Source: Galerina marginata
Lineage: Eukaryota > Basidiomycota > Agaricomycetes > Agaricales > Galerinaceae
Assembly: GCA_023014335.1 (NCBI GenBank)
Contig: JAECYW010000001.1
Location: 4,452,206 to 4,516,205 of the forward strand
Length of the DNA: 64,000 nt
Direction: 5' to 3'
This document shows, piece after piece, positions 8,067 to 56,469 of this stretch; positions within the stretch are counted from its first letter, which is position 1; the number at the start of each line of letters is the position of its first letter. The position numbers and the translations under genes were made by a program. The notes below the pieces were generated by a model. That model had not been told where the DNA came from and searched no databases. It saw only the letters and a program-made list of their open reading frames with translations.

Positions 8067-8233
8067 CGAGACTTCAACACCCCCGCTTCCGCAAGTTCAA
8101 TTTCCACTCCCAGTTCCACCGTTCTGTTAGCCACATAACGAGAAAAGTCCAATGGGCGGTAGAAATGGGTTGAATTTGATGACTAAGGGGTGGGCCTCAG
8201 TCATACGCCTACAACGAGCCAATGTAGGATAGG
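8067..8233 (+). repeat. left terminal inverted repeat
   Basis: Read inwards it begins CGAGACTTCAACACCCCCGC and ends at AATGTAGGATAGG. Its reverse complement aligns along its whole length with 29867-30039, with scattered substitutions and a few small gaps. Similarity stops sharply at 8067 and 30039, which is why these are taken as the element ends. Both copies stay open on one strand (peptides DFSRYV and AEAGVLKSR), so the repeat may once have been coding. Confidence 0.75.
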
Positions 8234-8696
8234 GGAAACCTTGCGATTTGGCCCTGCCTCAGCTTGTATAAAAAAGAAGGTAGGGCAGTCCGAGTTGAAG
8301 TGCCGTCATCGGACTTGCCTTGCGGGCCAACGCTGCGCGTGGCATGTACGAGACCCGACTTGAAACAGTGCCAGTCTCGTGGGCTTGCACTAAAGTCAGG
8401 TGAGCCGGCAACTGGATTAATATCTCTGAATGCTATTGACAAAAGCATGGTAGATGCAATGTAGTAGTGGAATCTGGCTCGGGAAGGCCGAGCACTGATT
8501 AGATTAGATGGCATTAGTAGCACAGCTTGTCCGTCTGTAGACAGACGCGGTCAAGTGACGGAGACATCACTGCTTGCTCCAACATTGCGTGCCATCTGTT
8601 TGCGCGCCTGCTCTATGCGCCTCCGAGCCTTCCCAGATTCGAGTTGTGATAGGTCTACTTCAATGTAATTTTTTTAAGCGCCTTCACGATTTTTTG
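8234..8696. other. left-arm spacer without counterpart in right arm
   Basis: No gene was recognised. The matching position in the right arm (29475-29866) carries unrelated sequence, so one of the two arms has gained or lost DNA here. Confidence 0.4.
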
Positions 8697-9652
8697 TTAA
8701 CGGCGAGCATAAAAAGCTACAACCGGCGTTTTGCCTTCTGCTGAGGTTAACATCTGCTCTAAACTTTCCGAGAACGATTCGAGTATTGCTGGCATTCCCG
8801 AAATGCCATTGTGAAACCAAGAATTATTATTCTTGTCAACGAACCGGGCTGTGAAATGGTTGGAATTTAGATATATTATGCCCTTTGAGCTGTACTCAAT
8901 GTGACCGGGTATTATATTCAGATGGAAATCGGTTTTTATGTCATAATGCAAAGGGAAGAAAATAAAGGGGGGGCTGTTGTCAGAAAGTCTGGGAGAATTA
9001 GGAAAGACTTATGTCCTCGTACCCTACATTTATCGCATAGACATTCTTTTTTGAATCTGTTCTCCAACTGTCCTTGAATCGAGTTTGGATAGCCAGGACG
9101 TGGACGCGATAAGATAATAAAGTTCGCAAGGGTAAAGTGAGCCAAGTTGGTTGTGTTATAGCATGATTCACAGACCGTCGTGGTTATGGTTTGATTCTTT
9201 TGAGTTGGGACGTTCAATAAATGCTCAACTACGGATTGAATATCTGTGGTTTTTTTGCCCAAGGGAAAGGTTATAGAATTGTCGTTGTGGAATTTTTTTC
9301 GTAGCTTATTCCTTGTTGTATTTATGTCCGAAGCAGTACTTGAGAAAGCAGTAACTAATATTTCCATGTATTTTGACACGCCTTTCCACTCGTTCGGAAT
9401 GGTGAGTCCGTGTTCCCACCATGCGTTATAAAGTATGAATATTACCGAGTCGTAAGCACAGCTCCAGTCCACGCTGTCCCATTTTGGCCCTAATATGGTA
9501 TTTTCCTCACCTCGTTTTTCGACTGCCTTTTGATTGAAGGAATTTTGTTGAATTTTTTGCTTTTTTTGCGGATAGGCGTCCAGTCCCAGGGTGTTCTTGA
9601 TGGGTACGCCAAATCGATGGAAACAAGGACAGCCCGCTGGCCTCTTGACCAC
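8697..9652 (-). pseudogene. USP-like cysteine protease, split by one frameshift
   Basis: Two minus-strand frames, 9652-8936 and 8951-8697, form one protein of about 310 residues. The first has WDSVDWSCAYDS, where the Cys aligns with the catalytic Cys box of ubiquitin-specific (UCH-type) proteases, followed by a zinc-ribbon-like pair CESC and CDKC. The second has SKGIIYLNSNHFTARFVD, with the catalytic-His motif (HFTARF). The frames meet at a run of seven G on the plus strand (8967-8973), and a one-base change there would join them. The loss may be a real mutation or a homopolymer error. Such protease domains occur as stand-alone, repeat-associated proteins in Agaricomycetes. It lies inside the left arm and has no copy in the right arm, so it may be a cargo gene or a nested insertion. 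Confidence 0.6.
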
Positions 9653-9674
9653 GTTTTCCGTGTATCACATGATT
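9589..9674 (+). repeat. 86-bp inverted repeat, left copy
   Basis: Its reverse complement matches 29389-29474 without gaps; I count about 77 of 86 identical bases. It sits between the protease gene and the satellite, the same relative position as in the right arm. Frames are open on both strands: the minus strand gives the N-terminus of the protease frame, while the opposite strand gives GTPNRWKQGQPAG, shared with the right-arm ORF. Confidence 0.8.
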
Positions 9675-12339
9675 CGGGTGACTGGGCCGTACAAATCTTG
9701 AGTCCCCAAGGCTGTCCATTTCTTTTACAATGGAAACATACGACCGTGTTGAGCCCGGAATAGATCCCCTCTCCAAATAAGAGCGTAAAAAAGTAGGACA
9801 CAACCCTCGGAAGAAAGTGGAAACAGAAATACACGATAATTTAGACCCGAACACGGAGCAGTAATACCTGGTCTTAAGACAAGGGTGGTAAATTACCTTT
9901 TAGTCCCAGTTGAAATGGAAATTTAAGAGGGTTCTGGGGACCATTATCCGGGAAGTCGAATAATTTACGAACAATAAAGTAATACGGTACCCTTCACGTG
10001 AATTTGAGACAGAAATTCAAGACTGTTTGCTGATGGGAACATAGACGCCATACCTATTTCGGATCACACGGTAGTAAATTTCCTTTCTTACGGATTAAAA
10101 TGGGAATATAGGACCACGTCGTGCTTGGATTAATTGTCTTCTACCGATTGGAGCATAGGAAGGTAATATATAGCGCCTCAAATCAGTCTCAAATGGAAAT
10201 TCACGATGGTTTAGGTGCGGGGATAGAGGAGTAGTACCTATTCTTACTTCAACAGTTGTAGGTTACAATTTGAAATCGAATTAAACAACTGTTTGTCCCC
10301 TAGAATATAAACACCATACTAATCCCAGATCAGATGGGAGTGCAGTTCCTTTAACTGGGATTCAGAATGGAATCGTACCGCCCCCTTGATCCAAGAATGA
10401 AGTAGTTCTACTAACTAAGGCGTCGCAAGGTGGTACAGAACCTTTCTCATCAGATAAAAATGGAAATTCATGACGATTGAAACGAACAAATATCGGAGTA
10501 GTACCTATCCATTCAACAAGGGAAGTGTCTTACCCTTCATTTCAATCTGTAATGGAAATATAGGGCGGTTAGTGGACCAGTCGCGTAGCGTTCAACTGTT
10601 TGAAGAGTAGAAAGGTGCTACAGTGCCTTTCACGCGAGCTTGAAATGGAATTTCATGACCGCCTGCCCACCTGAATATAGGCGCCTTACCAATTGCGAAT
10701 CACTGAGTAGTGTATTTCCTTTCATCCGGGCGCAAAATGGAATTACATGACCGTGTCGAGCCTGAAATAAAGGCATTCTACTAATTAGAGGGTAAAGAAG
10801 GAGTACAAAACCCTTCAACTAAAGCTAAAATGGAAATTGACGACGATTTACATTTGGAAACCTCAAAGCAATTCCTATTCCTATGAAAAGGGTTGTAAAT
10901 TCCTTTTCACGTCAATTTCTGAGGCATTCAGAGGACTAGAATCGTAGAGCCCCACCAATTGAAGACTAGAAACGTGGAACAGCACCTTTCATGTCGGTTT
11001 GAAATGGAATTGCACGATAGTTTGTCCACCTGAATTTAGGCGCAGTACTAATTTTGAACGGCATGGTGGTACATTTCCTTTTACCTGGATTTGGAACAGA
11101 AACATATGACCGTGTCGTGCCAAGAATGAAGTAGTTCTACTAACTAAGGCGTCGCAAGGTCATACACAACCTTTCTTATGAAGTTAAAATGGAAATTCAC
11201 GACGATTTAAACGCAGAAATATGGGAGAGCTACCTATCCATCCGACAATGGAAGTATATTACCCTTCACTTGAATCTGGAATGGAAATATGAGGCGGTTA
11301 GTGGACCAGTCGCGTAGCGTTCAACTGTTTGAAGAGTAGAAAGGTGCTACAGTGCCTTTCACGCGAGCTTGAAATGGAATTTCATGACCGCCTGCCCACC
11401 TGAATATAGGCGCCTTACCAATTGTGAATTACTGAGTAGTGCATTTCCTTTCATCCGGGCGCAAAATGGAATTACATGACCGTGTCGAGCCTGAAATAAA
11501 TGCATTCTACTAATTAGAGGGTAAAGAAGGAGTACAAAACCCTTCAACTAAAGCCAAAATGGAAATTGACGACGATTCACATTTGGAAAAATCAACTCAA
11601 TTCCTATTCCTATGAAAAGGGTTGTAAATTCCTTTTCATGTCGATTTAAAATGGAAATTTGAGGCAGTTAGAAGACTAGAATCGTAAAGACCCGCCAATT
11701 GAAGACTAGAAATGTGAAGCCCTACTTTTCACTTAAGTTTAAATTGGAATTGCACGACAGTATATCCACAGGAATAGCCGTGCCATCCTAATTTCCAGTG
11801 AAACGGTGGTATAATTTCTTTCGGCTGGACTTAGAATGGAAATATATGACTATGTCGTGCTTGGAATAAATTTCTTTTACTAATTAGAGGCTAAAAGGGT
11901 CAGTCAAATTGGAAATTCACGACAATTTAAACAGGAAAACATCAGAGCATTACCCATGCATCCAACACGGGTAGTTTATTACCTTTCACTTCAAACTGAA
12001 ATGGAGAATCCAGTGCGGTTGGGAGACCGGAATCGTGAAAGTCAACTAATTCAAGACTAAAATGGTGGTACAGTACCTTGTACGCGAATTTTAAATGGAA
12101 TTTAAAGATGGCTCGTCTACTGGAAGATAGGCGCCGTACCAATTTCGAATCACGGGGTAATACATTTCCCATCACCTAGGCTCAGAATAGAATTATATTA
12201 ACATGCAGTGGGTAGAATAAGTCTAATTCACCAATTACCAAGTAAATAGGTAGTACACAGACCTTCGACAAAAGCTGAAATGGAAATAGACGATCCAGAA
12301 TCGTGAAGCTCGACTACTGAAGACTAGTAAATTTGAAAT

Positions 12340-12520
12340 AAATTCATTTCTTCGTGTAACGTGTTAAAAACAATTTTTGGCTATAGAATATACGAATACT
12401 AGAAAGTTTGTGTCTGAAATTTTATCTCAAAAGAACTGCTGCAGTTTCCGGGCAAGATTTTTTGCGCGCGACGCCCGGAGTAAATCGTGGGAAACAGCGT
12501 AATTTTGACGGCAACCAACG
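12340..12520. other. non-satellite interruption in left array
   Basis: About 180 bp without the satellite anchors, with a poly-T stretch and GCGCGCGACGC. Satellite resumes immediately after. It could be a small insertion; no terminal repeats were seen. Confidence 0.4.
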
Positions 12521-12879
12521 CGGGAGAATTAAACGTAGAAATATCCGAGCAGTACCTATCCATGCAACAAGGGAAGTGTATTACCCATCACTTCAATCTG
12601 GAATGGAAATATGAGACGGTTAGTGGACCAGTCCCGTGGCGTTTAACTGTTCGAAGAGTAGAAAGGTGGTACAGTGCCTTTCACGCCAGCTTGAAATGGA
12701 ATTTCACGACCGCCTGCCCACTTGAACAGACAGTTAGGAAATTAAAATTGTGAAGCCCCACTACTTTAAAGCTGGGAAGGCAATGCAGCACCTTTCACGT
12801 TAATCCAAAATCGTACTCCACCCACTAGAATATAGGCGCCGTACTAATTCTTCATCACACGATAGTTCATTCGGGCACA

Positions 12880-13425
12880 AGAAATTTGGGTGCATTTTCG
12901 TGCCATCGGACTGCGTGCGTGCGTGGTTAACATTACTTAAGATGTTTTGGAGTGCAATTGAAGTGCACCTAAAAGCTTTACAGGGTTGCCTGAGCTTCGA
13001 GGACTAGCCGCCGACTCGGATCTTTGAATTGAGAATTTCTACTCATTCTGGGAGTTTAACGCTAAACAAACATTTCTGAGTACTCGGACACACTTCTAAA
13101 ACTGCTAAATTCTGTTTCTGTACAGCTTGACCCACCCACGCAGTTTGTGCATTGACTTTTAGGGCGTAGCGCTCACTTCCGGCGGAGTTTTAATTCGCTT
13201 GGGCGTCGTGGGAAACCGACAAGGTGAGGTCTTGGTTCAACGATATGGGCGCTTGTAAGTACATCTGTGTGCCGATTTTGTGAACTTGGGTGATATGCGT
13301 GTAAATTGGCACAAAATCGCCGTGCAATTACCGTGAAATGATGCACGGTGGCTGCACGGTTGTGTTCGGTAGCGCAAGGTAAATAAACAACCGTGGTGAG
13401 CAAGGAATACACTCATTATACTAAT
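12880..13425. other. non-satellite insertion in left array
   Basis: About 545 bp of non-satellite DNA lies between satellite monomers. It contains the inner inverted repeat 13048-13207. Its edges carry a weak inverted resemblance (GCATTTTCGTGCCA near 12911 and TGGCACAAAATCGC near 13307), so a MITE-like insertion is possible but not shown. Confidence 0.4.
13048..13207 (+). repeat. inner inverted repeat, left copy
   Basis: The reverse complement of 20278-20457 matches this stretch, including a core of CGCAGTTTGTGCATT, GGCGTAGCGCTCACTT and a block with TTTCTGAGT.CTCGGAC. The pair brackets the transposase gene and the two plus-strand genes after it. Confidence 0.7.
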
Positions 13426-14032
13426 CAAACTTATCGAGGTAGTAAGTAACCTTTCACATCCAACTGAACAGGAAATTCACGATGACTTAGGCACAAAAAT
13501 AGTGGGTCAGTACTTATTCTTATGACAAGGGTAGTAAATTACCTTTCACTCAATTCGAAATGGTAATTTGAGTCGGTTAGAGGACCAACGCGGGAGAACG
13601 CAACTGATTCAAAAATGGAAAGGTGGCACAGTACCCTTCACGCAAAGTTGAAATGGAACTTTAAGTTAGCTTGCCCACTGGAATAGAGGCGCCGTACTAA
13701 TCTCGGATCACCTGGTAATACATTTCCTTTCGCCGGAATTCAGATCAGGCGCCGTACTAATTTCGGTTTAGCAAGGTCCAAAATTCCCTTTCACCTCCAT
13801 TAAAATGAGAACTTGCGACATTTCTGGCACTTGAATATCGACACCGTACTAACTTCATTACACAGGTAGTATTTTAATTAACAACGACTTTGAATTGTAC
13901 TGAAATCTACAATGTGCTACCTTTAAAATGACTTGAGACGAAAGAAAGGGACCTATAGTTTCCCGGGAGCCCTCTGCTCATTGCCTGTCATAATGAACAG
14001 TAAGAACAAGCTACACTTGTAAATTACTGAGC

Positions 14033-17000
14033 TTACTTGGAAGATTCCTTTAATATTTTTCGAATCTTCATCCGATTCCATATTGCCAGAAAGACCCTTG
14101 TATAGATAATTGCCCTATCTTCTCGCATGTACGACACCTGTTTTCGAATTCGGCTAATTCCCCCATTACCACATTCTGCTGCGCTGGTGTTAATCCTTGC
14201 AATTTTTGGATCTAAATCTCCGTAAGTCTTTATGAAGCACGATGGTCCACACTTTGTATGGCCCAAAGCGTGACAATCGTCGATGCCGAAACGTGTGTTC
14301 TTGAAGAAATCAGCTTCACGCGTCATGCAGTATGGGGCCAGTGCACAAGCGTAGTCGTACACCACCCATTGCGGAGCAACCTTCCAGTGCGTTAGCAATG
14401 CAGAAAAGACATCATTCCTGCCTTCCGCCTTAGGAATGCAGTGGAATCCGTAGGCGATGTTATGGGTACACCAACACACCATAATACCTCCAGTAAGTCG
14501 ATTCTCGCCATACTCGGAAAAATACTTTGAGCACTTTGCCCGTTGTTTCCCCCCATCAGCTTTCTGATCGTGTTTCAAGCCGGGGTATTTGGGTCGGTGA
14601 CGTATTTTTGGCATATTATAAAGGCAACCGGACTAGGCGAATTTTGTGAATATTTGAGGCTTATAAAAAGCATGGAAGCCTTACTTTTTTCCAATCTAGA
14701 TCGTTTGGGATAGGCAGATTGCACGGTGGTGGTTTATGTGTCCTGAGGGCCTGTAAGACTTCCAGGGCTCTTGACGACATCCAGTGGCAAACTCCCAATA
14801 ACGCAGAGGGGTAACAATCTGCAGCGTTGTGCGATTCTTCGTATCTGACGATGTTGAACAATGCCGGGATACATCTCAGAAGAGTCGCGTTGGCTGGTGA
14901 TGGATTTTTGATAAATTTATTTAACGCGGCTAGCGATGGTAATGGAATCATTTGCACCACGGACTCTTGAGCACTAATCTTGAAATATAAAGGATTAATG
15001 GTGCCAAATTGAATAACCCAGAATATGGACCCACCTCTTTGAAAAATGCTACGTAATCTCGCGGAGAAGCGAGCTTAGCCAGTAGTCGTTCGACGCCACA
15101 ATATTTTCCGAATAACTCGCCGAGAGATGAGCAAACATTCTGCAAACCTGAGCGCGCTGCAGGAATGGCCTCGATGCGGTCAATGACTTCACGAATAGTC
15201 CGCGATCTGGAAGCCGCTGACTGTGTTGAAACGTCCTCGAATTCTTCATCTTCTCCTGAATCGCCCGCTGTTGTGCCAATCCCCGATTCTTGTGAGAATT
15301 TCTTCTCAACCTCAGTAAGGACAAGCGACCTCCCTGTCAATACTTTCCGGACTAGCTTTCGAACATTGTTTTCCAAAAATGTCTGGCCAGAGACATACTT
15401 CGAAGGTTGAGCCACCGAGTGTTCATCGATTGTTGTCGGAGGTCTGAGTGATGTAGTCAGCTGCTTTTTGCTGTAAGCTAAGGTTACCCCGTCGAAGATT
15501 ACTGTACTGGGCTCAGGGCCGCAGGTCGGGCACTCCATGTCGTATCTGTAGTCTTGCAATTTCGCATAGAGAAACCAGGCATGGCGAAATATGTCCTCGC
15601 TAGCAAACGTGAAATCAGGGGAGAAGGTCATGTACCGACGCTCCATAACGCTGACCCAGGCCACGAACGGGGTTTCTGACGAGGTATAAGCCATCGTATA
15701 GTCGTTTAACAGATCGTGTGAGAAGAGAATCTTGTTGTTATAGTTGAAAAGTCCAATCTTCCTTCCGTCTGCGCCGATGTAGCGCTTGACACTTTTTGAA
15801 CAGGAATTATGGCAGGTTTGGACCTCAATTTCGCAGTCAAAGGGTTCGGTGAGTGTATAGACCTTGCATGGTAATCGGATGACAGCAGCATCCCCCTTCA
15901 CCCGAGAATCGCAGAGGCAACGGGCATCCAAATCTAGCTGAATAAGGTCGGGCGGGCGCCGAAGAACTGGAGGTCTCTCGTATAGAACCTCATCCCGTGG
16001 TAGGGCGGCCCAGGATGGGGGAAGTATCGGCAGATGCGAGATGCACGACTGGCCTCTTGGACTGCTTGCAATTTGAGATAGCTCTGCAAAATTTTAAATG
16101 AAATCCATCTGTATAGTGGCTAATTACACACCTTGTACGTCCTGCATATCAAAGCCCTGATTACCGTCAAGTTGACTATGCGTAGATTGCTCAAGGTAGC
16201 TTTTTGCCCGCCTACTGTGAATGCATATACCACGCCCGTCCTTCGAACAAGTCCAGTGTCCGCCACCTGATTCGCTTCCTACATGATGAACGATCACACG
16301 CGCTTTGACGCTATCCCTGCGTTGATCAGCGGAGACAGAGAATGAGTGCCGATAAACTAAATCGTCTGCCTCCCACAGAAATATTATAACTGGTTGATGT
16401 TTTTCTAACAAAGCACCTTAAGCAGACCGATCAATCCTGAAGAAATCTCTTCACACTCACTTTCTGGGCCAGTGGGAGGGGTAGGGAACTGTTGTGTTCC
16501 GTATTCATTGAGAAATTGGACATGGAAACAAAATTGAGAGAGGCGGTACTGCGGACAGAAGCATCCAACCGAGAATTCGCAGCCCACGGGGATTTTTTGA
16601 AGATGATACCACTGTCCTATCTGCTACGAGTCAGAATGAAGGTCAAGACTTAATAAATTGCTTACTTTAACGCTGCTTCTAGTCCTATCCCAGCCTTGGA
16701 CAACAAAGAGGTCCATTTCCAACTGAAAAAATCCGGCTGCGCCTGACATCACGCAATCGACGTAGTCGGCGTATTCATTGGTCGTTCCAACTTCAGTCGG
16801 TAAGCCTTCAGCTAGATCCTCACTTTCACTGGGATGTTGATCTTCTTCTTGATGATTTTCAGAAGAGACCGTCCCTGGAGAGATTTCGTTGTTCCTGCTG
16901 CTCGAGGGCACATCCAGGTGTGAGATTTTCTGCCGTTTCCACACCTTCCCTGGTTCAAACAGCCGCTGACGCTTTTGCGGACTGCCAAGGAAGTGGTCGA

Positions 17001-17118
17001 GATCTGTTACAGGTGCAAGTTGGAGCTGATCTTCGTCATCAGAGGAGGGGGCAGTAAGCCTGAAGTCGTCGTCAGAAACCATCTTTAATATTGATTCCGT
17101 GCGTCGAAAAAGTGCCAC
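14033..17118 (-). CDS. KDZ-class transposase, intact six-exon gene (937 aa)
   Basis: Exons (minus strand) 17118-16666, 16620-16461, 16404-16132, 16083-15035, 14963-14685 and 14632-14033 join without frame breaks to 938 codons. Introns are 45, 56, 48, 71 and 52 bp. A start at 17082 (MVSDDDF) is an alternative. The N-terminus is acidic with a basic patch (KRQRL, KRQKI). Residues 150-330 are Cys/His-rich (GCEFSVGCFCPQY), followed by CLCDSRV...TCHNSCSK and the family blocks IGLFNYNNKILFSHDLLNDY, SSETPF and ECPTCGPEP. The C-terminal region has GGIMVCWC, VVYDYACALAPYC (Asp831), CHALGHTKC and NTSAAECGN (Glu891), the RNase H-like core of KDZ transposases of the CxC5/CxC6 clade. It is expected to excise and integrate the element; all key motifs are present. 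Confidence 0.88.
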
Positions 17119-17411
17119 ATTTAGATATCAACGCTGAAATGAGAAGGTCAAGCTGAACCAAACATGAGCTACAAAAGGAAAAGGTGTACCAACTAGCCTA
17201 AATTGGTAAGAGGAGACCATATCCGCAATCAATCGGTAAGAATTCTTAAACTCAGAATAGTAGGGTGGCTCTTTATATTGTGAAACAATGGTAAGTGGTC
17301 ACCAATACCTCACCCCTTCGAATTTCATTAAGAATATGTTTACATAATTTTTCAGTGAACTCTAGCGGTGGCACTCCCGACTCACGGCCCACGCATTTAT
17401 CGATCCACGTC

Positions 17412-18783
17412 ATGGCGAACACGCCACGCAAGCGTAAAAAACCTCGCTGCCGGAGGTGCCCTAGTAATCCTTTGCTTTCCGAATGTGAAGTTCATGGGGG
17501 TGGAAGGGGGCGAAATGTAAAGGTGCGTCTTTCATGAGTGGATTCCTTTTGCAGTCCTAACGCGGCCTGATGTTCGAAGGTCAATGGTCAAGTTGAGAGT
17601 GTTGAAGCACTCGAGCCCGAGGCTGAAGCAAGTTCTCTTCCGAAAATCCCCAATCTGGTTTGTCTCCCAATACTATTCATCAAGGAAATCACTGACCGCG
17701 ACCTGTGGATGTGGACTTACTACAGTCTGCACTTCCTCTGCTTCAAACTCCCAACAGACCTGTGCCGCATTTAATTGACAGTCGAGGAGTCATTCCACAG
17801 TGGTATTCAAGCCCTCTGATGATGTATCCGTCTATTCGCTATCCTGCTGCCCAACCGTCTGGCTGGAACCTCCCGATGTTTTCCTCAGCATCAATACCCG
17901 CCACGGACTCAAGTCAAATTCGTACGGATCCGATTCCAGATCCGGCGTTAAGCCCGCTCTTGCCTTTCAGCCCTCTCCCTCCCTCCAGCCCGCTTCCCCC
18001 GTCCAGTCCAATCGCATCATCTAGCCCTCCAGCTGTTTTCAATTCTCTTCCACCACCTCTAACGACATCCAGTAGTATCCACGCTCAATCTTCAAAAGAT
18101 CTCCTGCCAGCACATGGAGATGTCGACAGCGATGACGAAGATCATAGTCCAGGAAAGAAGCGTGTACGGGTTTCCCTTCGAAGCGCTCCATTCGGCTTTG
18201 TTGAGGGGGTGATGAAAGGAACTCAGAAATATCGTGCGCATCCAACTTTTTCTTTCTGTGCTTAGAATTATTCTAACTGTCTTTGTAGAGGTTGCCAGAC
18301 AGAAACCCATGCGTTCAATGATACAGGAAGCGAATAAGGCCAACAAACGTTATAAACGGGAAATAGATAACATTGTCTCGCGTGTATGTTATCCTCCATT
18401 TCTTGACGACTCCTATCTAACAAAAACAGTGCGAAAGGATCGCCGAGGAAACTGGTGCATGGCTTATTTTTGGGGCCCAGCAATCCGGGTCAGGCGCATC
18501 GATTACTTACTCGTCGTCAAAGCTCCGTAAAGACGCGCTTCAAGAAACTACATCTATACTTCAGCAGTTTCAAAAGACCACAAAAGCACTCACCACCGCC
18601 AAATATAACGATGCCAAAGAGTTGGCTAAGCAGTTGCAAGAAGTACTTGCAGCGCAGGAAGCTCAGAAGCAAGAGGAACAGGCGAAGTCTTTGGAAGTTC
18701 AGAAGAAACTCTTGGAGCAGACAACTGAGTTGGCTGCCAAAGACGAATTAATAGCCAAGTATAGACTTCAGTTGGGAGAGTAG
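17412..18783 (+). CDS. transposon-borne coiled-coil protein with N-terminal Cys motif (381 aa)
   Basis: Five exons, 17412-17522, 17580-17657, 17726-18233, 18289-18383 and 18430-18783, join to 382 codons. Introns are 57, 68, 55 and 46 bp with CTAAC or CTGAC branch sites. The N-terminus is basic (TPRKRKKPRCRRC) with Cys residues spaced C-x2-C-x8-C. The middle is Pro/Ser-rich and disordered (about 65-200). A conserved block follows: MIQEANKANKRYKREID and CERIAEETGAWLIFGAQ. The last 80 residues form a Gln/Glu/Ala-rich coiled coil. It is divergent from the transposase gene across 17119-17411, so the two may share a promoter. I do not know its function; a DNA-binding or oligomerising partner of the transposase is an inference from the basic Cys motif and coiled coil. 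Confidence 0.8.
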
Positions 18784-20216: not shown

Positions 20217-20277
20217 ATGCCCAGTTGATAGTACTGTATGTACTGTACAGTTGTGATGATCAGATTGTTTTATTGCC

Positions 20278-20457
20278 ACTACGACCTCTCACAATGCCAA
20301 GACGAATTGAAACTCCACTGAAAGTGAGCGCTACGCCTTAAAAGTTAATGCACAAACTGCGTGGATGGGTCAAACGGTATGGAATTGATTTTGATTGCTT
20401 AAGAAGTTCGTCCGAGCACTCAGAAATTTTTATTTCAAGGTTAACGCCCTGGAATGA
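20278..20457 (-). repeat. inner inverted repeat, right copy
   Basis: Inverted partner of 13048-13207, sharing AAGTGAGCGCTACGCC and AATGCACAAACTGCG. With its partner it frames 13.05-20.46 kb, which holds the transposase gene and two more genes. Confidence 0.7.
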
Positions 20458-20742
20458 CCAGAAATGGCCATCAGAGTTCTCGATGACACGCATCACGCAG
20501 CGAGATGTTGGTCAGCTGAGTGACTGAGTGAGTGGTAAGACTGATCGCGGGAGACAGCAGCTAAATATAAGTAGACAGATTGATTTATGAATAGAAACCG
20601 CCGTCGCCTCTTTGACGCCCTTTCTGGATGCTGCAGAACGGCTATATCATGTCTCACCCCACCGAAATTCTTGTCTGCGCATACGTAGATGGTGTTAAAC
20701 CGGTCAGTCTGGGTTATATAATTGATTTTTGAGCCGTTCTTC

Positions 20743-21330
20743 ATGCTAGTAAAACAGGGCTTTCTACGTCTTAAAGGCCAACTTGAGGAAGGGATACTTT
20801 TTCCCTCTCGGAACCCGTGCCTGTCCCTTGGTTTGGGTATTCAGTTGGAATTGGATGGCCGTCACTCCAGGAATCGTTACATGGTCTATCGGCCTTTTGA
20901 AAGACCCCACTGGCAAATTGCCCAGCTTTTCACAGGCGAATTCGTGGAGCCGGGAACATTTCTAATTTACCGACCGTTTGGGTACCTCGACGCATACTGT
21001 GACGGTCTACCGGCACTTATATGTGAACTTCACGATTCCATCTCACGAGCCTCGCACAGTTCTATTTGTCCTCAAATCCCACCGAGGTACCGCGAGAATA
21101 CAAGACTTCCCTTACCACCCAAGTTTCCTCACGAAGACGAATTCGAAGGTGACGAAGACGATTACGATACCGAGGAGGAGTACTACGCCATGCTTAACCC
21201 GATGTCTGACGATCCCGAGGAAGAACAGGACGAGGACGAGGATGAGATACGGTTGGAGTCTAGTTGTGACGATTCGAAGAATTTGGAATCTGAAGGCGAT
21301 GAAGATGACTACGATACTAAAGACGAGTAG
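20743..21330 (+). CDS. conserved 'MVYRPFERPHW' protein with acidic tail (195 aa)
   Basis: Single exon from the ATG at 20743. The first 110 residues carry strongly patterned motifs: RLKGQLEEGILFPSRNPCL, GLGIQLELDGRHSRNRYMVY, RPFERPHWQIAQLF, TGEFVEPGTFLIYRPF and YLDAYCDGLP. I recognise this as an uncharacterised protein type recurrent in Agaricomycete genomes. The final 60 residues are a low-complexity Asp/Glu-rich tail (GDEDDYDTEE, twice), as in histone- or DNA-mimicking nuclear proteins. There is no signal peptide or membrane segment. It sits between the inner inverted repeat and the MYND gene and has the intact look of its neighbours. The biochemical role is unknown. Confidence 0.75.
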   Translation: MLVKQGFLRLKGQLEEGILFPSRNPCLSLGLGIQLELDGRHSRNRYMVYRPFERPHWQIAQLFTGEFVEPGTFLIYRPFGYLDAYCDGLPALICELHDSISRASHSSICPQIPPRYRENTRLPLPPKFPHEDEFEGDEDDYDTEEEYYAMLNPMSDDPEEEQDEDEDEIRLESSCDDSKNLESEGDEDDYDTKDE

Positions 21331-21926
21331 GAATCGAAGGATTTGGATCTATGCTAGGTTTATTCAGTGCAGACAAACCATTTAATCACTCTTTAACTTT
21401 GTAAAAGGCCAAATGAATACCGTTTTGGAAGTTTCTCACCATTTGTTTCCAAAAAACCTAAATTTGGGCGTGGTTACTATTTGGGACATCGGAGCCTTTA
21501 CGTGCTACAGATATCAGATTTACTATCGATAGCTATGGCAATCAGGGAGGTGATCAATGTTGCACATGGGTATGTATTTGCACGGATCTGCGAAAGAAAA
21601 AAGACAACAGCTGGACCACCTCAATATTTGCAGTTTTTGTAGTCAACCTGCCAAGTATCTTTTGACGTTATTACAAACCCGGATCGCCTCCAAATCAGTT
21701 TACTGAAGTTCCTGCACCGGTTAAAACTAACCACCTTTCGTCAATGAGGGCTTCATCAATGATGGCTGACATGCTGTTCGATCATTTGATGAGCCGGTGG
21801 AGTGCCTTGATCAGAGAAGAAGATGCAAAAGGCAACCAATTATGCGCAGCTGCGGGTACATGCCTCATGGGAACCATGAAAACGAAACAGGGGAAACACA
21901 AGTTTATTTTTTAATAAAATATAAGT
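21331..21926. other. intergenic between convergent genes
   Basis: 3' sides of the acidic-tail gene (plus) and the MYND gene (minus). Only short frames occur, and nothing recognised. Confidence 0.4.
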
Positions 21927-22652
21927 CTAAAGTAGAATTTCAGAGGCCAGATTCGGGAAAGCAGCGTCGAACGAATTGAGGAAGTTGATTTCTGACCGTA
22001 ATGCATCAAACTGGAGCTTGAGCGGGAGGAAAGGGGTAGAATAATCATAGAGATTGACGGGGAATGATGTGATTGTGAGGGCGGGATCGCGAATGTGATC
22101 GAACTTTGAGTACTGGAAATACATGAAAACACATGTGGGAGGGTTGCATGGGAACCATTTGTGGTAGTCCTCCTGACTGAACGCAGCGTCGACTTTTTTG
22201 ACTTCGAGTTTCTGGAATGCCAGTTTATTGTGAACGGCAGTGATCGGTGAACAGTCCCTCTCGACTAAAGAAACCTTGAAGAATTTTTTGCGCAAGCTGC
22301 TGTCGAGTGTTTCTGGTGCGTCGGACTCTATAATTGTACGGGCAATTTGAGCGAGCCTTTCTTCATGGACATTGTGCCAAGACATAGAAAGTTCGTTGTC
22401 GGGGGCCGTTTGGATTCCATTCTGACAAAAGGGTTTGTGCACCCGCCAGTTCTTCAACTGACATGATGAGTTCTTCAAACAAGCATTTTGAGATCAATCT
22501 TATCGGAAGAATGTAGTGAAACGCACGCAATAAAATACCCCCCGGCAACCGGTGCATATTCGACGGTGTCGAAGTAAAGTGCGACACGAGGCGCAGAATT
22601 GGAAATAATCTGCGTTGCGCTCCCGTCCCGGGAGAATAGAGACATTAGGCAT
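21927..22652 (-). CDS. MYND zinc-finger protein (223 aa)
   Basis: Two exons, 22652-22527 and 22472-21927, separated by a 54-bp intron. Splicing assembles the finger: FCASC and CTGCRGVFYC come from exon 1, and NSSCQLKNWRVHKPFC from exon 2. This gives the MYND zinc-coordination pattern (C-x2-C, C-x2-C, YC-x3-C, H-x3-C) at about residues 18-58. MYND fingers bind short proline-containing peptides and recruit corepressors or chromatin factors. The rest (60-223) has no SET domain or other recognised module; it contains FPCNPPTCVFMYFQYSKFD and ends LASEILL. No membrane segment was seen. It is convergent with the acidic-tail gene and divergent from the 12-exon gene. The finger is certain from sequence; a role in the element is inference. 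Confidence 0.85.
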
Positions 22653-23124
22653 CCGGATTCTGGATCAGGATCAGTGGGAATTAAAGTGCAGAAAGACAGC
22701 TGGAAGCCAACCTTTGACCTCTATGGGTAAATGAAAAAAGGGGATGAGATTATGACAGAAGTTTGTTCCTCAACGGAGGGGAGGTGGACTAGTTAAAGAC
22801 GGTCCCTTATGAGTGGTGTATATCCCCCTTTGGAATTTGATTTTAGGCGCTTCTTTTGGGTGAGCGATTGCCAGGGCATGTGTAACACTGCTTAATTAGG
22901 CAGTTGTGCAGCGTGGATGATTGCAGATCTCATGAGATCTACTCATGTTGACCACGGGGAGAAATGGTAAGCATGGATGCCATTGAGGCGTGGTTAGTTT
23001 TGTTTTGATACTTCTTGTCTCCGAAAGGTTATCCGAGTTTTTTTTCGACCACTCGAGAACTATTGTTTACCTTCGAAAGACTTTACGCCGTCAACTCACT
23101 ATAGTCCTAAACTCCTTTCTGGCA
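22653..23124. promoter_or_regulatory. divergent intergenic region (MYND gene / 12-exon gene)
   Basis: 472 bp separate the two start codons, so it should carry both promoters. No clear TATA box or repeated operator was found. A palindrome GCAGATCTCATGAGATCTAC lies near 22924. Confidence 0.4.
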
Positions 23125-25454
23125 ATGTCAACACCGGTGGAACACCTTGCTAGTGGTAAGTAGATCCAGCTCTGCACTGTACTGGCCGAAAGTCTAACCT
23201 GTCAAAGAAATTGCACTTGCAGAGGTTGAGCGAGACCGCTGCATGAAGATTTTGGAAGAGGCCGACAAAATTTATAACGAATTAGCTGGTGCTAAACCAC
23301 GCGCCAACCGCGGTAAGCATATTGATCGTCCCTTCACCAGTCAATGCCTAACAAGTATTATTCTTGGTTCCACAGGGCAAACCAAGGCAGCCTCCGACAA
23401 GAGGGTGGACGCCCTCCGCCAGTATACTTTAAGCGTTGAGCGCGTTGAAGAGCTCTTGGCTAAACAAGAGGTCAGTCTTCTACCGATTTTTATAAGTTCT
23501 ACGTTGAAGGCTGATGGCACAAATCACAGAATACTGTCCAAAAACGAGGTCTACCAGGCGGATCGACCACCACCAAGAGTTCACAAGTCGACGCTGACAC
23601 CCACGGAGAAAAGCGTACAAAGACCTCAAAGACCCAGGCGGTGAACCAGGTCCCAACTCAGGAGGAAGGTACGAAAACATATGTCACTTCTACCTCAATT
23701 CTATTCCTTCCTCACACCGTTACAGCAGGAGTCGGGAATGTTACCCCACCCGCAGGGGATGCTACGACGACTCAGAAAGAAGTCAATTGTGCGTCAAATC
23801 TCACCTCCTTACTTCTACCTCCACCTCACAATGCTACAGCGGGAGATTCCGTGTTACCGGCCGGAGGTGCTATGGAACCCCACAACCCTAAGGAGGGAGA
23901 TGCATCCACAGGTAAATATGAACATATTTCGATGTTTCAGACTGCGTCTAATTCCAAACTTCTAACCTGCTGATTCAGCGCTTACCGGCGGAACGGCTAA
24001 CGATGGTGCTTGTGGAGCAAAGGATGCCGGTAATTACTTTCGAATCTCTGCGTCACTCAGCATCTAATATACCGAGACAGAAAATGCTGCGGGAGGTGGC
24101 GGAACGGTGACTGGTCAGGTCGCTCCTGGGGAGATGAACATCGATCAAAGTACGTTGTTCTTAAATGTCAATCTAGTCAATTACTTACCAAGAACCCTTA
24201 GCCTCTAACAATGACGGAGGTCCAGCCCAAATCGCTGTGGGAGGTGGTGGAACGGCGACAGGTCAGGTCGCTCCTGGGGGGATGAATGGCGATCAAAGTA
24301 CGTTGTTTTTAAATATCAATCTAATCAACTACTCACCAAGAACCCTTAGCCTCCAACGATGATGGAAATCCAGCCCCTAAAGAAAAGAAAAAGAAGGGTG
24401 TGTTACCGTCTCTGTCGTTGTAAATGTCCTAACAACCCTCGGCTAGTCGCTAAGAATAAAGACGAGCCAGCAAAGGTTCCTTGGGAGGAATTGTCACAGG
24501 AGCAGCAGGAAAAGCTTACCGGTACGCGCCGTGTGTTCCAGACGTAACGATCTAACATACCCTACAGCGGATGGAAAGTTGGCGATAAAGGACTTCCATA
24601 AAGCCTTTGAAGCCTTTGGCTTTGATGACGCCGCAAAGCGCCTACGCCTGAGCAAGGAGGTCCTGAATCGCATCCAGACCGACCAAGCATACCTCCCAGA
24701 AGCGGCGACATCGTCAATGGAACTAGGGGAAGCAATCTTGCTTTCTAATCGTTCAAACTCACGTTGTCTCTTTCACCAGCGGAAGGATAAAAGCGGTAGC
24801 AATTACGATGGCCACAGTCAGGGGAGCGCGAAGTATTTCAAAATCCTTGGGGTCCCTGGACCACGGGTAATGAAGCTGAAGAAGTCGGATGCGAAAGAGC
24901 CAGACGAGGGTTTGTTGCACTGTGGGTGCGCCGTCGACTCCGCTCTGTGGGAGCTCATCTGGTGGAAGACTTGGTCGGTGACGTGCGACGTCGAGGGAGA
25001 ATTGGTGACTGAGTCGCTGTTGACTGATTTACCAAGTCCTCGCATGCGCTTGTTCATTATCACCGCCCTCGAGGCCCAAGGAATTCGTCTCGAAGACTTC
25101 TACACCGCTATTTCGAAGGACCAAACGGTGCGTAAGAACAAAATCGCTACGCTGAAGGATCGGCTCGTCAAATTGCTGGACAAGGTCAACGATTTGGATG
25201 GTGCCAAAGATGGAATGCAATACATCGTTGCCCGTGCGAATAGATTCAGAGATGAGGACGACGACGGTGCCGATGCCAGGAAAGAGGGAAAGGGTAAGGG
25301 CAAGAAGCGAAAAGTTGCGCAGGACGATGGAGACGATGACGACGATGGCAGCGAGACTGACGGTGATGCCAAGAAGAAGGGAAAGGCGAAGCAGAAGGCG
25401 TCAAAGAAAGAGACGAAGGGAGGCCCGAAGAAAAAGTCCAAGGTCTCGGAGTAG
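23125..25454 (+). CDS. 12-exon basic nuclear-type protein with duplicated exons (571 aa)
   Basis: Exons: 23125-23155, 23223-23312, 23376-23470, 23530-23668, 23726-23788, 23840-23911, 23979-24029, 24081-24149, 24202-24297, 24350-24397, 24447-24521 and 24568-25454, joining to 572 codons. Introns are 46-67 bp, most in phase 1. Residues 1-120 are charged (YTLSVERVEELLAKQE). Residues 120-250 are Gly/Thr-rich; exons 8 and 9 both encode GGGGT(V/A)TGQVAPG. The C-terminal exon has a compact domain (FHKAFEAFGFDDAAKRLRLS, LLHCGCAVDSALWELIWW) and a tail alternating Lys and Asp/Glu blocks (KGKGKKRKVAQDDGDDDDD), typical of nuclear proteins. It is the last gene before the right satellite arm. I do not recognise the family. 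Confidence 0.8.
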
Positions 25455-25593
25455 GGAAATCACTGGCTTAGCCTCCTTTGTACGTTCGAATATGATGGCT
25501 TTTTCCTTTTTTAACTTCAAAAGTCGGATCTGCGAGCAAACTAGGGATTTCAACTTGAAATTGACTCCAGATAGTCTGCAAGTACCATACTAC

Positions 25594-28500
25594 TACTGAA
25601 AGGTAAGTTACCACGCTTCACGCCAGGAATGGGTACCGTCCGTCTATTCCAGCAATTGAATTGTGGTGATTTTCCGTTTGCGCTGGGCGTGAAGGGTTAC
25701 ATATTACCTGATGTGGCATGAATTAGTGGACGACAGCTATTTGGGAAAAGAATCAGTCATATGTTTCTATAGTCAATGCAAGTGAACAGAAAAATACCAC
25801 CATGAAATCTGGAATAAGTACGGCGCTTATATTCCAGTTGTCAAATAGTCGCAAAATAAATAGACCCGGTGGGTACCGCACTATCCACGTAGGCTTTTTT
25901 AGATGACTGAATGAGCTGAAGGTTTCATTTCAGAATGAACTGAAAGGTAAGTCACCACGCTTTGCCCCAGGAATTGGTACCGTCCATCTATTCCAGCAAC
26001 GGAATTGTGGTGAATTTCAGTTTCAGCTGGGTGTGAAGAGTTACATATTACCTGATGTGGCATTAGTTAGTGGACGACGGCTATTTGGGAAGTCAATCAG
26101 TTCTATATTTCTATTTTGAATGCAAGTGAACGGAAAAATACCACCATGAGATCTTGAACAAGTACGGCGCTTATATTCCAGGCGCCAAATAGTCGTGAGA
26201 TTCCATCTGAGATCAATCCGGACAGTGCCGCATTACCCATGTAGGCTCCAATTGGCTGATTATCACCATCTAGATGCTCGAATGGGCTCAATGTTCCGTT
26301 TCTGAATGAACTGAGAGGTAATTCACCACGCTTCGCTGCAAGAATAGGAACTGTCCATCTATTCCAGCAACTAAATCGTGGTCAATTTCCGTTTCAGCTT
26401 TGTGTGAAAGGTAATACATTACCGGATATTGCTCTTGTTTGGAGATGGGGTATTTTTGAGGGATAAATCGGTATTACATGTCTATTGTTAATCCAGGCCA
26501 TCAGAAATACGCCACCATATACTCTTACATTGGTATGAAGCATATATCTCAGCAGCCAAAAGGTTGTGAAATTCAATTTCAAAACACCTGAACGGTACTG
26601 TTCTATCTATATAGCTCTAAATTAGCTTATTACCACCGTTCACCTTCCCGAACTGGCTAAAGGTTCCATTTCAGAATGAACTGAAAAGTAATTTACCACG
26701 CTTCGCTGCAGGAATGGGAACCGTCTGTCTATTCCAGTGACTGAATTGTAGTGAATTTCCGTTTCAGCTGGGTGTGAAAGGTTATATATTACCTGATCTG
26801 TCCATAATTAGTGGAGAAAGATTCCTTCGGAAATTTATCAGTCGTATACTTCTATTGTGAACGCAAGTGAACGGAAAAATACTACCGTGAGATCTAGAAT
26901 AAGTACGGCGCCTATTTCCCAGCAGCCAAACAGTGGTAAAATTCGATTTCAATGACGCCAGACGTGTAATGCACTACCATTGTACCCCGTAATTCGTTGA
27001 TCACCGCGATTGATGTCCCCGAACGGGCCAGGAAATTCCATTTCGGTTTCAACTGCATGGTAATCCAGCGCGTTCGTCATAGGAATAAGTACTATTTAGA
27101 TTCGTCAATTCCAGCGACTAAATCGTGGTGAATTTCAGTTTCAGTTTTGTGTGAATGGTTGTCAATCTCCATTTCAAATTACTCGAAGGGTACTGCACTA
27201 CCTTTCCTGTCTTTAATTGGTTAATCGTCCCGATTGATGTCACCAAATGCCTATTCATCTTGCGGTGAATGGTTATATATTTCTTGATCCGGCTCTAATT
27301 AGTCGACGAAGTCTAGTTTGGGCGTAAATCTGGCGTATTTGTCCATTGTGAATGCAAGTGAACGGCAAAATACCACTGTAAAATCAAGAATAAGTCTGGC
27401 GCTTATAGTCCGCCAGCTAAACAGTCATAGAATTCCATTACAAAACCCCCAAAGGGTACTGTACTACTTATCTAAGCTGTATTTAGCTTCTCCAACTCGT
27501 GAAAAGCGTCGGAATGGGCGAGAAATTCCATTTCAAATTAAACTGAAAGGTAATTCACCACCTTCGTCGAAGGATTGGGTGCTGCTCGTCTACTTCAGCA
27601 ATTATATTGTTCTGTATTTCCGTTTCAGATTGCACTGAATGGTTATATCTTGCTTGACCTGGTTCCAATTAGTAGAGGAAGGTTATTTGGGGCTCGGATC
27701 CGTCATATATTTCCATTGTGAATCCGAGTGAACGGAAGAATATCACCGGGAGACCCAGAATAAGTATGACACTTATGATCTGGTGGCCAAACAGTCGTAG
27801 AATTCTATTACGAAGATCCCCAAAGCGTACTGCACCACCCATCCAGTCTTTAATTAGCTAGCCCCCACCGTTCAGATGGCCGAACTGCTTAAAATTTCCA
27901 TTTCGGATTGAACTGAATAGTAAATTCACCACCTTCGTCGAAGGAATGGGTATTGTTTGTCCATTCCAACGATTATATCGAGGTGTATTTCTGTTTCAGA
28001 TCGCGGCGAATGGTTATGTATTTCCTGATCTATCTCTAATTAGTAGATGAAGATTATTTGGGGCATGAATCCGTCCCATTTTTCCGTTGTGAATCGAAGT
28101 GAACGGAACAATTTCACCGTGAGGTCCAAAATAAGAAGGGCGCTTATGTTCCAGTGGCAAACAGTCATAGAATTCTATTACGGAGACCCCCGAAGTGTAC
28201 TGCACCACCCAACCAGTCTTTAATTAGCTTGCATCCACCGTTCAGATGGCCAAACTGCTTGAACATTCCATTTTGGATTCAATTGAATAGTAATTCACCA
28301 CCTTCGTCGAGGGAATGGGTACCGTCTGTCCATTTCAGCAATTATATTGTGGTGTATTTCCGTTAAAGCTTGCTATAGATGGTTATATATATCTTAATTC
28401 AGTTTTAATTCGTAATGGAAGGGCAGTTAGGGCATAATTCCGTCCTATATTTCCGTTGTGAATTTGAGTGAACGGAAAAATACCACCGTGAGATCCAGAA

Positions 28501-29215
28501 TATGTACGGCGCTTATATTCCGGTCCCAGACAGTCATAGAATTCCATTACAGAACTTCCGATGGGTACTGCCCTACCCATCTACGGTATAATTAGTCAAT
28601 CCACCTTGTGCAAATCCTCGGAATGGGCAAGACATTCCATTTCAAAGTGAACTGAAATGTCATTCACCACCTTCGTCGAATGAAACGGGTACTTTTCGTC
28701 TAATTGGTCAAGTAAATCGTGTTAAATTTCCATTTCAGCTCTTCCGTCAAGGGTTATAGATCGCTTATGAATCCAGGTTAAATGAAATCCACCACCTTAT
28801 GATCTGAAATCGGTCTGGTGTTTATATTTTAGTGGTCAAATGGGCGTGAAATTCCATTTAAAATCCACCTGAACGGTTCCGTGACACTTCTTTAATTTTA
28901 AATCGTCGAGCCCCTCAATTTACATCCACTAAACTCCCAAGATTTCTACTTGGACTTGATCTGAAAGGTAATCTGCTACCCTTGTCGTAAGAATAGGTGC
29001 ACAATTCCGTTTCGGCCCAATCCTAACAGTTGTGTACTACCTTTCTAAGCTTTATTTAGTAGAAGTGGCTAGTCTGTTCCTGATACGGTCGTCAATTTCC
29101 ATTTGGAATCCAGGCAAAAAGAAATGTACCACCGTCTTTATCTGAATGTGGTGCGTGTCTTATATTTCAGTGGACGAACTGTCCTGAAATTCCGTTTGAA
29201 ATTGATACTGTGCCA
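25594..29215 (-). repeat. right-arm satellite array, inverted relative to left
   Basis: The reverse complement shows the same monomer family as the left arm (for example CAGCTGAAACGGAAATTCAC and ACCTTTCA). The block AACTGAAAGGTAAnTnACCACGCTT recurs near 25598, 25945, 26307 and 26677, giving a higher-order period of about 350-370 bp, matching the left arm. Units diverge towards 29.2 kb. No gene was found within; the many frames of 60-106 codons are repeat by-products. Confidence 0.85.
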
Positions 29216-29259
29216 TGTATTGCCTTGCTATGCTCTCGTAAATGGTAGGCAGGAACGAA

Positions 29260-29823
29260 CTATGCATAAATACGTCCAAGGCTGGCCCAATAAATTGTGT
29301 AGAAATAGAAATTCCTGACAAGTAGTACTTGCAAATGGTGTCTAGATTCCATTCCAATAAGGCGACGGATGTCAGATGATGGGTTCCCAATCATGTGATA
29401 CATGGGAACCGTGGTTGATGGGCCAGCGGGCTGACCTTGTTTCCATCGATTTGGCGTACCCGTCAAGAACACCCAGAGAACGGGCTGCTGTCCCTTTTTT
29501 TGCTTGGGCGACGAGGTTTCTGTCTTGTTTAGGTTATTGGCCACATCATTAGCTGTCCTTTTCTTCTGCTTCTGTATTTGATCCTGTTGCAGTTTTTCTG
29601 CGTAGTCAAGATGCGCTTTGTTATTCTTGTCTATAATCCAGAGTTCTGCAGGAGTTTCGGGTGAAGTTTCAAACATGTCTACTTTTATTTCGAGGGCGCG
29701 GTGCCAGGTGATGGCAAAGTCCGGGTTTTCTTTTTTCAGCGTATAGTAATTTTTTATGGTCCGGTTTCGTAGTTCGGATACGGCATTTTCATCAATAAGA
29801 CCTTCATAACGTAGCTCAGTCAT
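29260..29823 (-). CDS. uncharacterised Lys-rich ORF in right arm (187 aa)
   Basis: One frame from the ATG at 29823. Residues 1-80 look like a genuine folded segment (NAVSELRNRTIKNYYTLKKE, FAITWHRALEIKVDMFE, TPAELWIIDKNN). A Gln/Lys coil follows, then a Lys-rich linker, and then residues encoded by the 86-bp repeat (GTPNRWKQGQPAG). The last 40 residues run into satellite-flanking sequence and are doubtful. It occupies the position that in the left arm holds the spacer and protease gene, on the opposite strand relative to the arm. It may be the remnant of another element gene. No family was recognised. Confidence 0.4.
   Translation of the reverse strand: MTELRYEGLIDENAVSELRNRTIKNYYTLKKENPDFAITWHRALEIKVDMFETSPETPAELWIIDKNNKAHLDYAEKLQQDQIQKQKKRTANDVANNLNKTETSSPKQKKGQQPVLWVFLTGTPNRWKQGQPAGPSTTVPMYHMIGNPSSDIRRLIGMESRHHLQVLLVRNFYFYTIYWASLGRIYA
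29389..29474 (-). repeat. 86-bp inverted repeat, right copy
   Basis: Partner of 9589-9674 (about 77 of 86 bases equal by my count). On the plus strand the frame used by the left-arm protease contains a stop here, so only the opposite-strand frame is open. Confidence 0.8.
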
Positions 29824-29866
29824 TTTGTTGAGAATCTCTAGTTCTCGAAACTCTTGTCTTAGATAT

Positions 29867-30039
29867 CCTATCCTACATTGGCTCGTTGTAGGCGTACGAC
29901 TGAAGCACGCCCCTTCGTCATCAAATTCAACCCCTTTCTACCGCTCATCGGACTTTTCTCGTTATGTGTCTACAACAGCAGGACGGGTGGAACTGGGAGT
30001 TGAAGTTGAAGCGGCAGAAGCGGGTGTGTTGAAGTCTCG
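29867..30039 (-). repeat. right terminal inverted repeat
   Basis: Inverted partner of 8067-8233. It begins CCTATCCTACATTGGCTCG and ends GTTGAAGTCTCG at 30039. The next bases (AACAATACC) share nothing with the left flank. Confidence 0.75.
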
Positions 30040-30311
30040 AACAATACCAGCTAAGTAGCTACTAAGGGACACAGTTGAAGCACAGGTGATAATGTTTATT
30101 TGGGAAACATAAGGCCAATCTGTCCAGTCCGATCTCATAGTTCATCCGATTCCCCCCCTGACCTGTAGGAAAAGTGGGAGGTTGACAGAATGAAATTCAG
30201 AATAAGACTAAGAGGCGGACAAGGATACGTGAAGGGGTCTGATTGCGACAGACGAGAGTAAGAAGATAAGATAAGACCGGAACAGGTACGTAAAGGGGGG
30301 ATACCAAAATG

Positions 30312-56406: not shown

Positions 56407-56469
56407 GCAACGTCTTTTGTCTTTCCCAGAATCTCCACAAGTCACCCCGAAAGTTCGAAAAAGCTCGCG

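Follow-up and report, generated by a model that had tools for sequence, protein, structure and literature searches.

The locus and the ends of the element

The window, meaning the whole 64,000-bp stretch of Galerina marginata DNA that was analysed, is the terminal 64 kb of contig C1 and ends in telomere repeats ((GGTTAG)10.8 at 63936-64000), which gives it a subtelomeric position. At 34 kb from these repeats lies a mobile element that occupies positions 9569-29494 (19,926 bp) and is assigned by its sequence to the KDZ superfamily of DNA transposons. It comprises terminal inverted repeats (TIRs), an arm of tandem dyad units on each side, a transposase gene and a set of accessory genes, and it interrupts an older unit of 2 kb. 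Genome comparisons refer to a single genome (69 Mb, 43 contigs), the copies being labelled by contig (C39, C43, C15 and C40). The ends are formed by:

9561-9568, no strand: left target-site duplication TTTTTTTG, a perfect 8-bp direct repeat with 29495-29502
9569-9673, plus strand: left TIR with tip CGGATAGGCGTCC, from the genome-wide places of the block and the alignment to the right TIR
29390-29494, minus strand: right TIR with inward-read tip GGGACAGCAGCCC, from the copy comparison and the alignment to the left TIR
29495-29502, no strand: right target-site duplication TTTTTTTG, a perfect 8-bp match to 9561-9568

The original prediction had placed the ends at 8067 and 30039, with a size of about 22 kb. 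Homology between the window and the other copies ends instead at 9563-9570 on the left and at 29494 on the right; the flanks belong to the older unit, and the size is 19.9 kb. A query of 8067-9700 matched the C39 copy only from 9564 inward (among the best 40 of 115 candidates), and the right-side matches end at 29494 on C40, C39, C43 and C15, along with a 35-bp piece on C13. The left tip stands at 9569 and the right end at 29494, and the ends read CGGATAG and CTGTCCC. The TIRs are imperfect and measure about 105 bp; the predicted inner inverted block was recovered at 9570-9677 and 29386-29493, with 83% identity. Genome-wide, this terminal block is present 9 times, 7 of them outside the window: it stands at both ends of four copies and at a single end on C40. 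Perfect 8-bp duplications flank all four complete copies and are all different: TTTTTTTG in the window, GACTTTGG in C39, GTCATGTT in C43 and AGCAGATA in C15. An Rfam scan of 8000-30100 gave no match at gathering score.

Further copies and an empty site, proposed earlier as checks, were both found: three more complete copies (C39, C43 and C15) and a paralogous empty site on C20, the only one identified. The flanks 5600-8066 and 29200-32500, searched for an allelic empty site, had no near-identical second place in the genome; their best foreign matches were 81% on the left and 93% on the right, the latter being the element's own end on C40.

The older unit split by the insertion

The outer inverted pair bounds an older unit of 2 kb whose open reading frame (ORF) is interrupted by the KDZ element. 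Its two parts are:

8067-9560, no strand: left part, outside the element, with inverted end 8067-8233
29503-30039, no strand: right part, outside the element, with inverted end 29867-30039; it forms a minus-strand frame of 355 amino acids with the left part

The nested inverted pairs described earlier are thus real (86% for the outer pair, 83% for the inner block and 55-74% for the arms) but belong to two nested things, their nested look arising because the KDZ element split the older unit. Joined with a single copy of the duplication, the flanks restore a unit of 2,039 bp with inverted ends of about 170 bp, and the 355-amino-acid frame is open. The C20 relative aligns with this restored frame across the junction over 327 amino acids (57%, E 7e-124); a gap of 6 residues adjoins the junction. 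The predicted terminal sequence CGAGACTTCAACAC and its inverted partner were found at 8067 and, as reverse complement, at 30026, their sole exact places in the 69-Mb genome. The outer sequence was not matched in the C39 flanks (about 3 kb per side), and no target duplication is visible outside 8067 and 30039.

The frame of the older unit has 74 places in the genome, many of them within open frames of 2,000-2,940 amino acids, and its ORF (8936-9568 plus 29503-29937; the C20 relative is at C20:376472-377086) resembles the tail of frames of up to 2,940 amino acids. No Pfam family was identified in it at cut-off; a stretch of the C20 relative (QGKTR...YTALSR), also without Pfam match, looks like a helicase motif. 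The segment 8459-8646 inside the unit is a dispersed repeat that received about 34 of the 42 matches of the 8067-9700 query, several of them as same-orientation pairs about 2 kb apart. Eleven bases of the unit's tip, TTGAAGTCTCG, recur at 7648, about 420 bp outside the left end.

Transposase

14033-17082, minus strand: KDZ transposase of CxC4 type, 930-amino-acid model from a splice scan guided by C39 and C43 conservation
17082-16666, 16620-16461, 16404-16132, 16083-15035, 14978-14685 and 14632-14033, minus strand: the six predicted exons

The expected KDZ-class transposase was identified by its CxC4 domain (143.9 bits in Pfam, cut-off 26.9, E 3e-42) and by a KDZ catalytic segment. The KDZ profile itself is weak, with 15.6 bits in the model, below the cut-off of 26.6, and 19.4 in the exon alone; 2 of 19 aligned transposase sequences carry both domains. 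Residues D481, D824 and E884 are invariant in these 19 sequences (the query and 18 aligned of 114 relatives) and are, by our own assignment, the probable catalytic D-D-E triad. Membership in KDZ is indicated by this D-D-E core with a cysteine cluster, by the 8-bp duplications in 4 of 4 copies and by the TIRs. The closest two of the 114 related proteins found are from Agrocybe (54% and 51%), which points to an agaricomycete as the probable host, and the ratio of nonsynonymous to synonymous divergence (dN/dS) against C39 is 0.11. A Pfam scan of 17 ORFs of the element and of the spliced transposase revealed no recombinase, although short exons could escape it.

Accessory genes

17696-18783, plus strand: accessory gene j (ORFs 17696-18265, 18216-18530 and 18421-18783), conserved in copies
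19425-21330, plus strand: accessory ORFs k/l (19425-20216) and m (20722-21330), found in C39, C40, C43 and C15
21927-22720, minus strand: accessory gene n, a conserved ORF
23198-23973, plus strand: ORFs p and q, open frames conserved in C39
24447-25454, plus strand: accessory gene r, with a lysine- and acid-rich tail, conserved in copies

Five intact genes besides the transposase had been proposed. They stand as conserved ORF groups but not as intact gene models, the exon models being incomplete. The k/l and m frames are perhaps a single gene, both lying inside one 602-amino-acid open frame of C40. Gene n has no Pfam match and a Cys/His pattern that by eye is presumably MYND-like. The j part 18421-18783 is 98% identical in C39, 92% in C40 and 82% in C43 and C15, and r is 98% identical in C39 and C40 and 61% in C43 and C15, with a dN/dS of 0.10 against C39. 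No homologues of r and m were identified among public proteins at E<=0.001 in a word-based search with unfinished gene models. Two repeats of this region are also present in C39: a 148-bp tandem duplication within the gene core (24082-24376, 87%) and an inverted repeat of about 180 bp within the element (13035-13213 and 20287-20465, 77%).

A genome query with the concatenated ORFs j, k, l, m, n and r (best 50 of 96 candidates scored) identified at least 52 places. Of these 52, 39 lie no more than 25 kb from one of 22 transposase places, a zone that makes up 1.6% of the genome. At least one accessory gene lies beside 17 of these 22 places, which are not independent, as seven pairs are 99.1-100% identical where compared. 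Thirteen places are away from transposases, 5 of them being the C40 copy and 5 lone n matches, so that n may belong to a wider family. The order and orientation of j, l, m, n and r are identical in all four complete copies. Distant loci (transposase 34-44% identical) present only one to three accessory genes, j or r in most of them; the order and divergent orientation of j, l and r recur at two of them, C40:1772588 and C39:3659598 (a near-identical pair), and others are arranged differently, for example with j downstream on the same strand. Judged by neighbourhood, the accessory genes are a recurring core with the transposase. The earlier idea of a cargo, in the sense of captured passengers, is not supported, since the genome has these genes beside other KDZ transposases as well.

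Array arms

9672-13943, plus strand: left array of dyad units of about 31 bp (9672-12361, 12482-12803 and 13303-13943), from array-model occupancy and spectrum
25540-29406, minus strand: right array of dyad units of about 31 bp, inverted, from self-comparison, spectrum and array models

The predicted inverted satellite arms are present at about 9.68-13.9 and 25.6-29.2 kb, with pieces 55-74% alike, and on either side fill the stretch from the TIR to the genes; array edges are uncertain by about 60 bp, as they come from model occupancy. Array-model windows of 450 bp were positive only at 9601-13950 and 25451-29350, with none in 32-64 kb, and a finer 124-bp scan of 8-31 kb also picked up weak signals, 126-135 bp long, near 17.1, 19.1-19.3 and 25.1 kb. 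Among the fetched loci, the array model matched none outside family members.

Tandem Repeats Finder gave periods of 370 bp in the window right arm, 369-370 in the C39 left, 338 in the C39 right and 123-124/247 in the C43 left, and reported no long array in the window left arm. The Basic Local Alignment Search Tool (BLAST) detected no array similarity between the C39 left and right arms, nor between the C43 left arm and the others, and similarity of the C39 right arm to that of the window is confined to the TIR and to about 60 bp at the gene border. In C43 and C15 the left arm matches its own right arm, inverted, at 63-77%.

The base period is shared: the spectra of the five arms (5 of 5) show peaks at 30.3, 30.8, 30.7, 30.6 and 31.0 bp. 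Spectral power at these peaks is 18-54 times the median, and three controls stay at or below 4.5 times. Cyclic 31-state models trained per arm all align to a single unit, ACCaTTT-N9-aAAtGGT, whose half-sites are mutual reverse complements. Arms without BLAST similarity recognise each other's models with z of 17.8-31.2 against dinucleotide shuffles, where 30 control scores range from -1.6 to 2.8. In none of 50 comparisons did any of 300 column-permuted models, which keep the period, reach the real score; among block-permuted models, 1 of 300 did so in two of the 50. Each model correlates with its own reverse complement (0.37-0.65), a value reached by no permutation in four arms. The arrays change quickly in sequence and in length but retain their period and dyad.

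A 185-bp inverted repeat (12342-12526 and 55515-55700, 82%) falls where the left array of the window is interrupted and is probably a later insertion. In the C43 copy, about 630 bp beside the left array (L083:1870-2501) recur on C8, C41 and C4 at 81-84%, with weaker matches elsewhere; the recurrences on C8 and C41 sit about 4 kb from other KDZ transposases.

Copies and module exchange

18490-25540, no strand: module common to the window and C39 at about 98%, coding and non-coding, from 250-bp bins

The copies on C43 and C15 differ in 1 of 4062 bases around the transposase (99.975%) and occupy different insertion sites, which points to recent movement. They measure about 18.9 kb (C43) and 20.5 kb (C15), the C15 left arm having extra array sequence. 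On C40, the CxC4 exon and the catalytic segment were not found near the accessory genes, so this copy is taken as truncated or non-autonomous. Besides C43/C15, six pairs of transposase loci on different contigs (C39:3329670 with C41:2810752 and five others) are 99.1-100% identical, either as alleles of a two-nucleus assembly or as recent copies.

In bins of 250 bp, the window and C39 are 78-92% identical at 14.0-17.5 kb, 83% at 18.25-18.5 kb and 96.4-99.6% from 18.5 to 25.5 kb, coding and non-coding alike; the right arm falls to 44-54% and the TIR to 71%. At about 17.6-18.2 kb, 649 bases of C39 were uncompared, which puts the left switch, near 18.5 kb, within read sequence. Synonymous divergence (dS) amounts to 0.553 for the transposase, as against 0.050 for the accessory ORFs, an 11-fold difference between adjoining modules. 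The C40 copy is also a mosaic, with r at 98% and j at 92% but l, m and n at 70-73%. A central 7 kb at about 98%, between a transposase region at about 85% and right arms that cannot be aligned, means that modules were exchanged: recombination between elements swaps whole modules.

Comparison with known systems

KDZ elements are common in mushrooms and little described. No KDZ element with subterminal arrays or with this gene core was found in the literature passages searched; the founding description of KDZ is reportedly that of Iyer et al. 2014.

Starships, the giant elements of ascomycetes, are tyrosine-recombinase elements with variable cargo. As generally described, they resemble the present element as large fungal elements with several genes; the present element differs in having a D-D-E transposase, TIRs and target duplications of 8 bp and in accessory genes that recur.

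Within KDZ, the Cryptococcus elements KDZ1, KDZ2 and KDZ3 measure 9.2-11 kb, carry TIRs and make target duplications of 4-8 bp (PMC12810828), and KDZ1-3 and Zisupton have TIRs of 139-241 bp and CxC1 (PMC12810828, PMC12730594). KDZ1 and Zisupton share with the present family a KDZ-type transposase with a cysteine cluster, TIRs and 8-bp duplications; the present family differs in its size (about 19-21 kb), its CxC4 type, its dyad arrays of kilobase length and its core of several genes, the passages searched on KDZ1-3 and Zisupton making no mention of tandem or subterminal arrays (PMC12810828, PMC12730594). Kyakuja, also of the KDZ superfamily and from Agaricomycetes, is described with 7-bp duplications, CA..TG ends and no TIRs (PMC12730594), whereas here the duplication has 8 bp, the ends are CGGATAG and CTGTCCC and TIRs are present.

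Outside KDZ, the closest analogues are in size and arms. The soybean CACTA element Tgmt* has 20.5 kb, with subterminal regions of 159 and 732 bp, and the subterminal repeats of CACTA/En-Spm elements vary from family to family and are recognised by a protein of the element, which in maize is TNPA (PMC2613891). Size is alike, and so may be the reading of the repeats by a protein; the 3-bp duplications, the CACTA ends (neither found here), the short subterminal regions (about 4 kb here) and the unrelated transposase are different. Galileo and other Foldback-like elements have long, internally repetitive inverted ends, variable repeat numbers and chimeric copies (PMC3573991; Tetris, PMC4079207), and secondary binding sites have been proposed in the Galileo repeats (PMC3573991). 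They differ in the P-superfamily transposase of Galileo, the non-autonomous state of Tetris, repeats of about 210-220 bp and the lack of a gene core (PMC3573991, PMC4079207).

Interpretation

The reading preferred here, with a probability of roughly 0.65, is that of a KDZ transposon, about 20 kb long and recently mobile, with arms that serve as protein-binding arrays and bring its ends together. The mobility, the ends, the array unit with its shared period and dyad, the lower divergence of half-sites and the mosaicism are observed; binding by a protein, the identity of this protein and the gathering of the ends are inferred from them. The transposase would cut at the TIRs and insert with 8-bp duplications, a chemistry suggested by the D-D-E residues. 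Each arm would hold about 120 dyad units, an estimate from length that takes the arrays as continuous, with half-sites alternating about every 15-16 bp and units recurring about every three helical turns, so placed that a dimeric element protein would most likely bind along one face of the DNA. The original prediction had suggested the transposase as a possible binder. The arms are plausible as protein-binding arrays, and the candidates are the cysteine-cluster part of the transposase or an accessory protein (j or r). The bound arrays might gather two ends across 20 kb, in the manner of TNPA on the subterminal repeats of CACTA elements, while array sequence would turn over with period and dyad kept and recombination would trade modules between elements.

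Several results weigh against this reading. The peak of about 31 bp ranks second, not first, in the C39 right and C43 left arms, and in a period scan without model-size penalty the best period is 30 in the window left arm, 31 in three arms and 40 in the C43 left arm (506, versus 480-490 for 31-32). In all five arms the ten strongest peaks include one at 10.24-10.28 bp; as 10.3 bp is a harmonic of 31 bp, it is not independent evidence of helical phasing. Arms unrelated by BLAST are positive only against shuffles and permuted models, their absolute log-odds being negative in 9 of 14 cross-comparisons and positive in 5, which makes the shared signal real but weak per unit. The self-dyad of the C39 left arm is weak (matched by 2 of 500 permutations), and there are only 0-3 exact paired half-sites for each arm, strand and pattern, the units being degenerate. 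Beside 18 distant KDZ transposases (L047-L064; 1.5 kb each side of the matched exon) no array was found, the best z of 2.4 being reached by 3 of 200 permuted models.

The strongest alternative, to which a minor share of probability is given, is a passive satellite: the repeats would have grown in the KDZ element by unequal exchange, and period and dyad would record ancestry without function. The degenerate units agree with it, as does the variation of array length and sequence between copies, even the near-identical C43 and C15. It accounts poorly for the persistence of period and dyad where alignment fails, and for the divergence within the arms. In the alignable left arms of the window and C39 (80.7% identical), half-site columns diverge by 15.8-15.9% and other positions by 22.1-22.3%, a difference to which base-wise mutation bias is a possible contributor. 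With the register taken from the right-arm model, untrained on those bases, the difference has a Fisher p of 7e-5, and the true register comes first of 31; from the arms' own models it comes second of 31. Information content is about twofold higher in the half-sites of 5 of 5 arms (rank 1-3 of 31), with the mask taken from the same models.

A role in chromatin is improbable. The arrays would then be targets of a host factor, or would position nucleosomes or establish silencing at the element's borders, with no part in transposition; their location on both sides, between TIR and genes, suits it. Array conservation is tied to this transposon family, and the array model is silent elsewhere in the window and in the non-family loci, observations that speak against this role while being compatible with a host factor. 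A single 22-kb element ending at 8067 and 30039, or a palindromic subtelomere, both suggested by the 86% outer pair and the telomere repeats, are rejected on the grounds of the inner 8-bp duplications, the ORF split exactly there, the copies bounded by inner ends, an outer tip without other exact genome places, the absence of outer sequence beside the fetched ends of other copies, the lack of visible outer target duplications and the location of the C43 and C15 copies, at least 0.39 Mb from contig ends.

An extension of the protein-binding reading, tentative and rather doubtful as a whole, is a multi-protein KDZ system in which an element-encoded dimer would coat two helically spaced dyad arrays of about 4 kb, with site number, spacing and dyad under selection, the array sequence being homogenised and replaced, the binder co-evolving with the array, and whole arms and gene cores being traded between elements. 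The case provides exact ends, target duplications and a core of genes found again beside divergent KDZ transposases, together with a cis-acting array unit short enough for a direct binding test. It also presents module exchange between elements and a satellite DNA that changes fast in sequence while its period and dyad persist.

Between the element and the telomere the window contains two long direct repeat pairs, 40643-43041 with 47820-50075 (74%) and 55881-57384 with 60270-61685 (69%).

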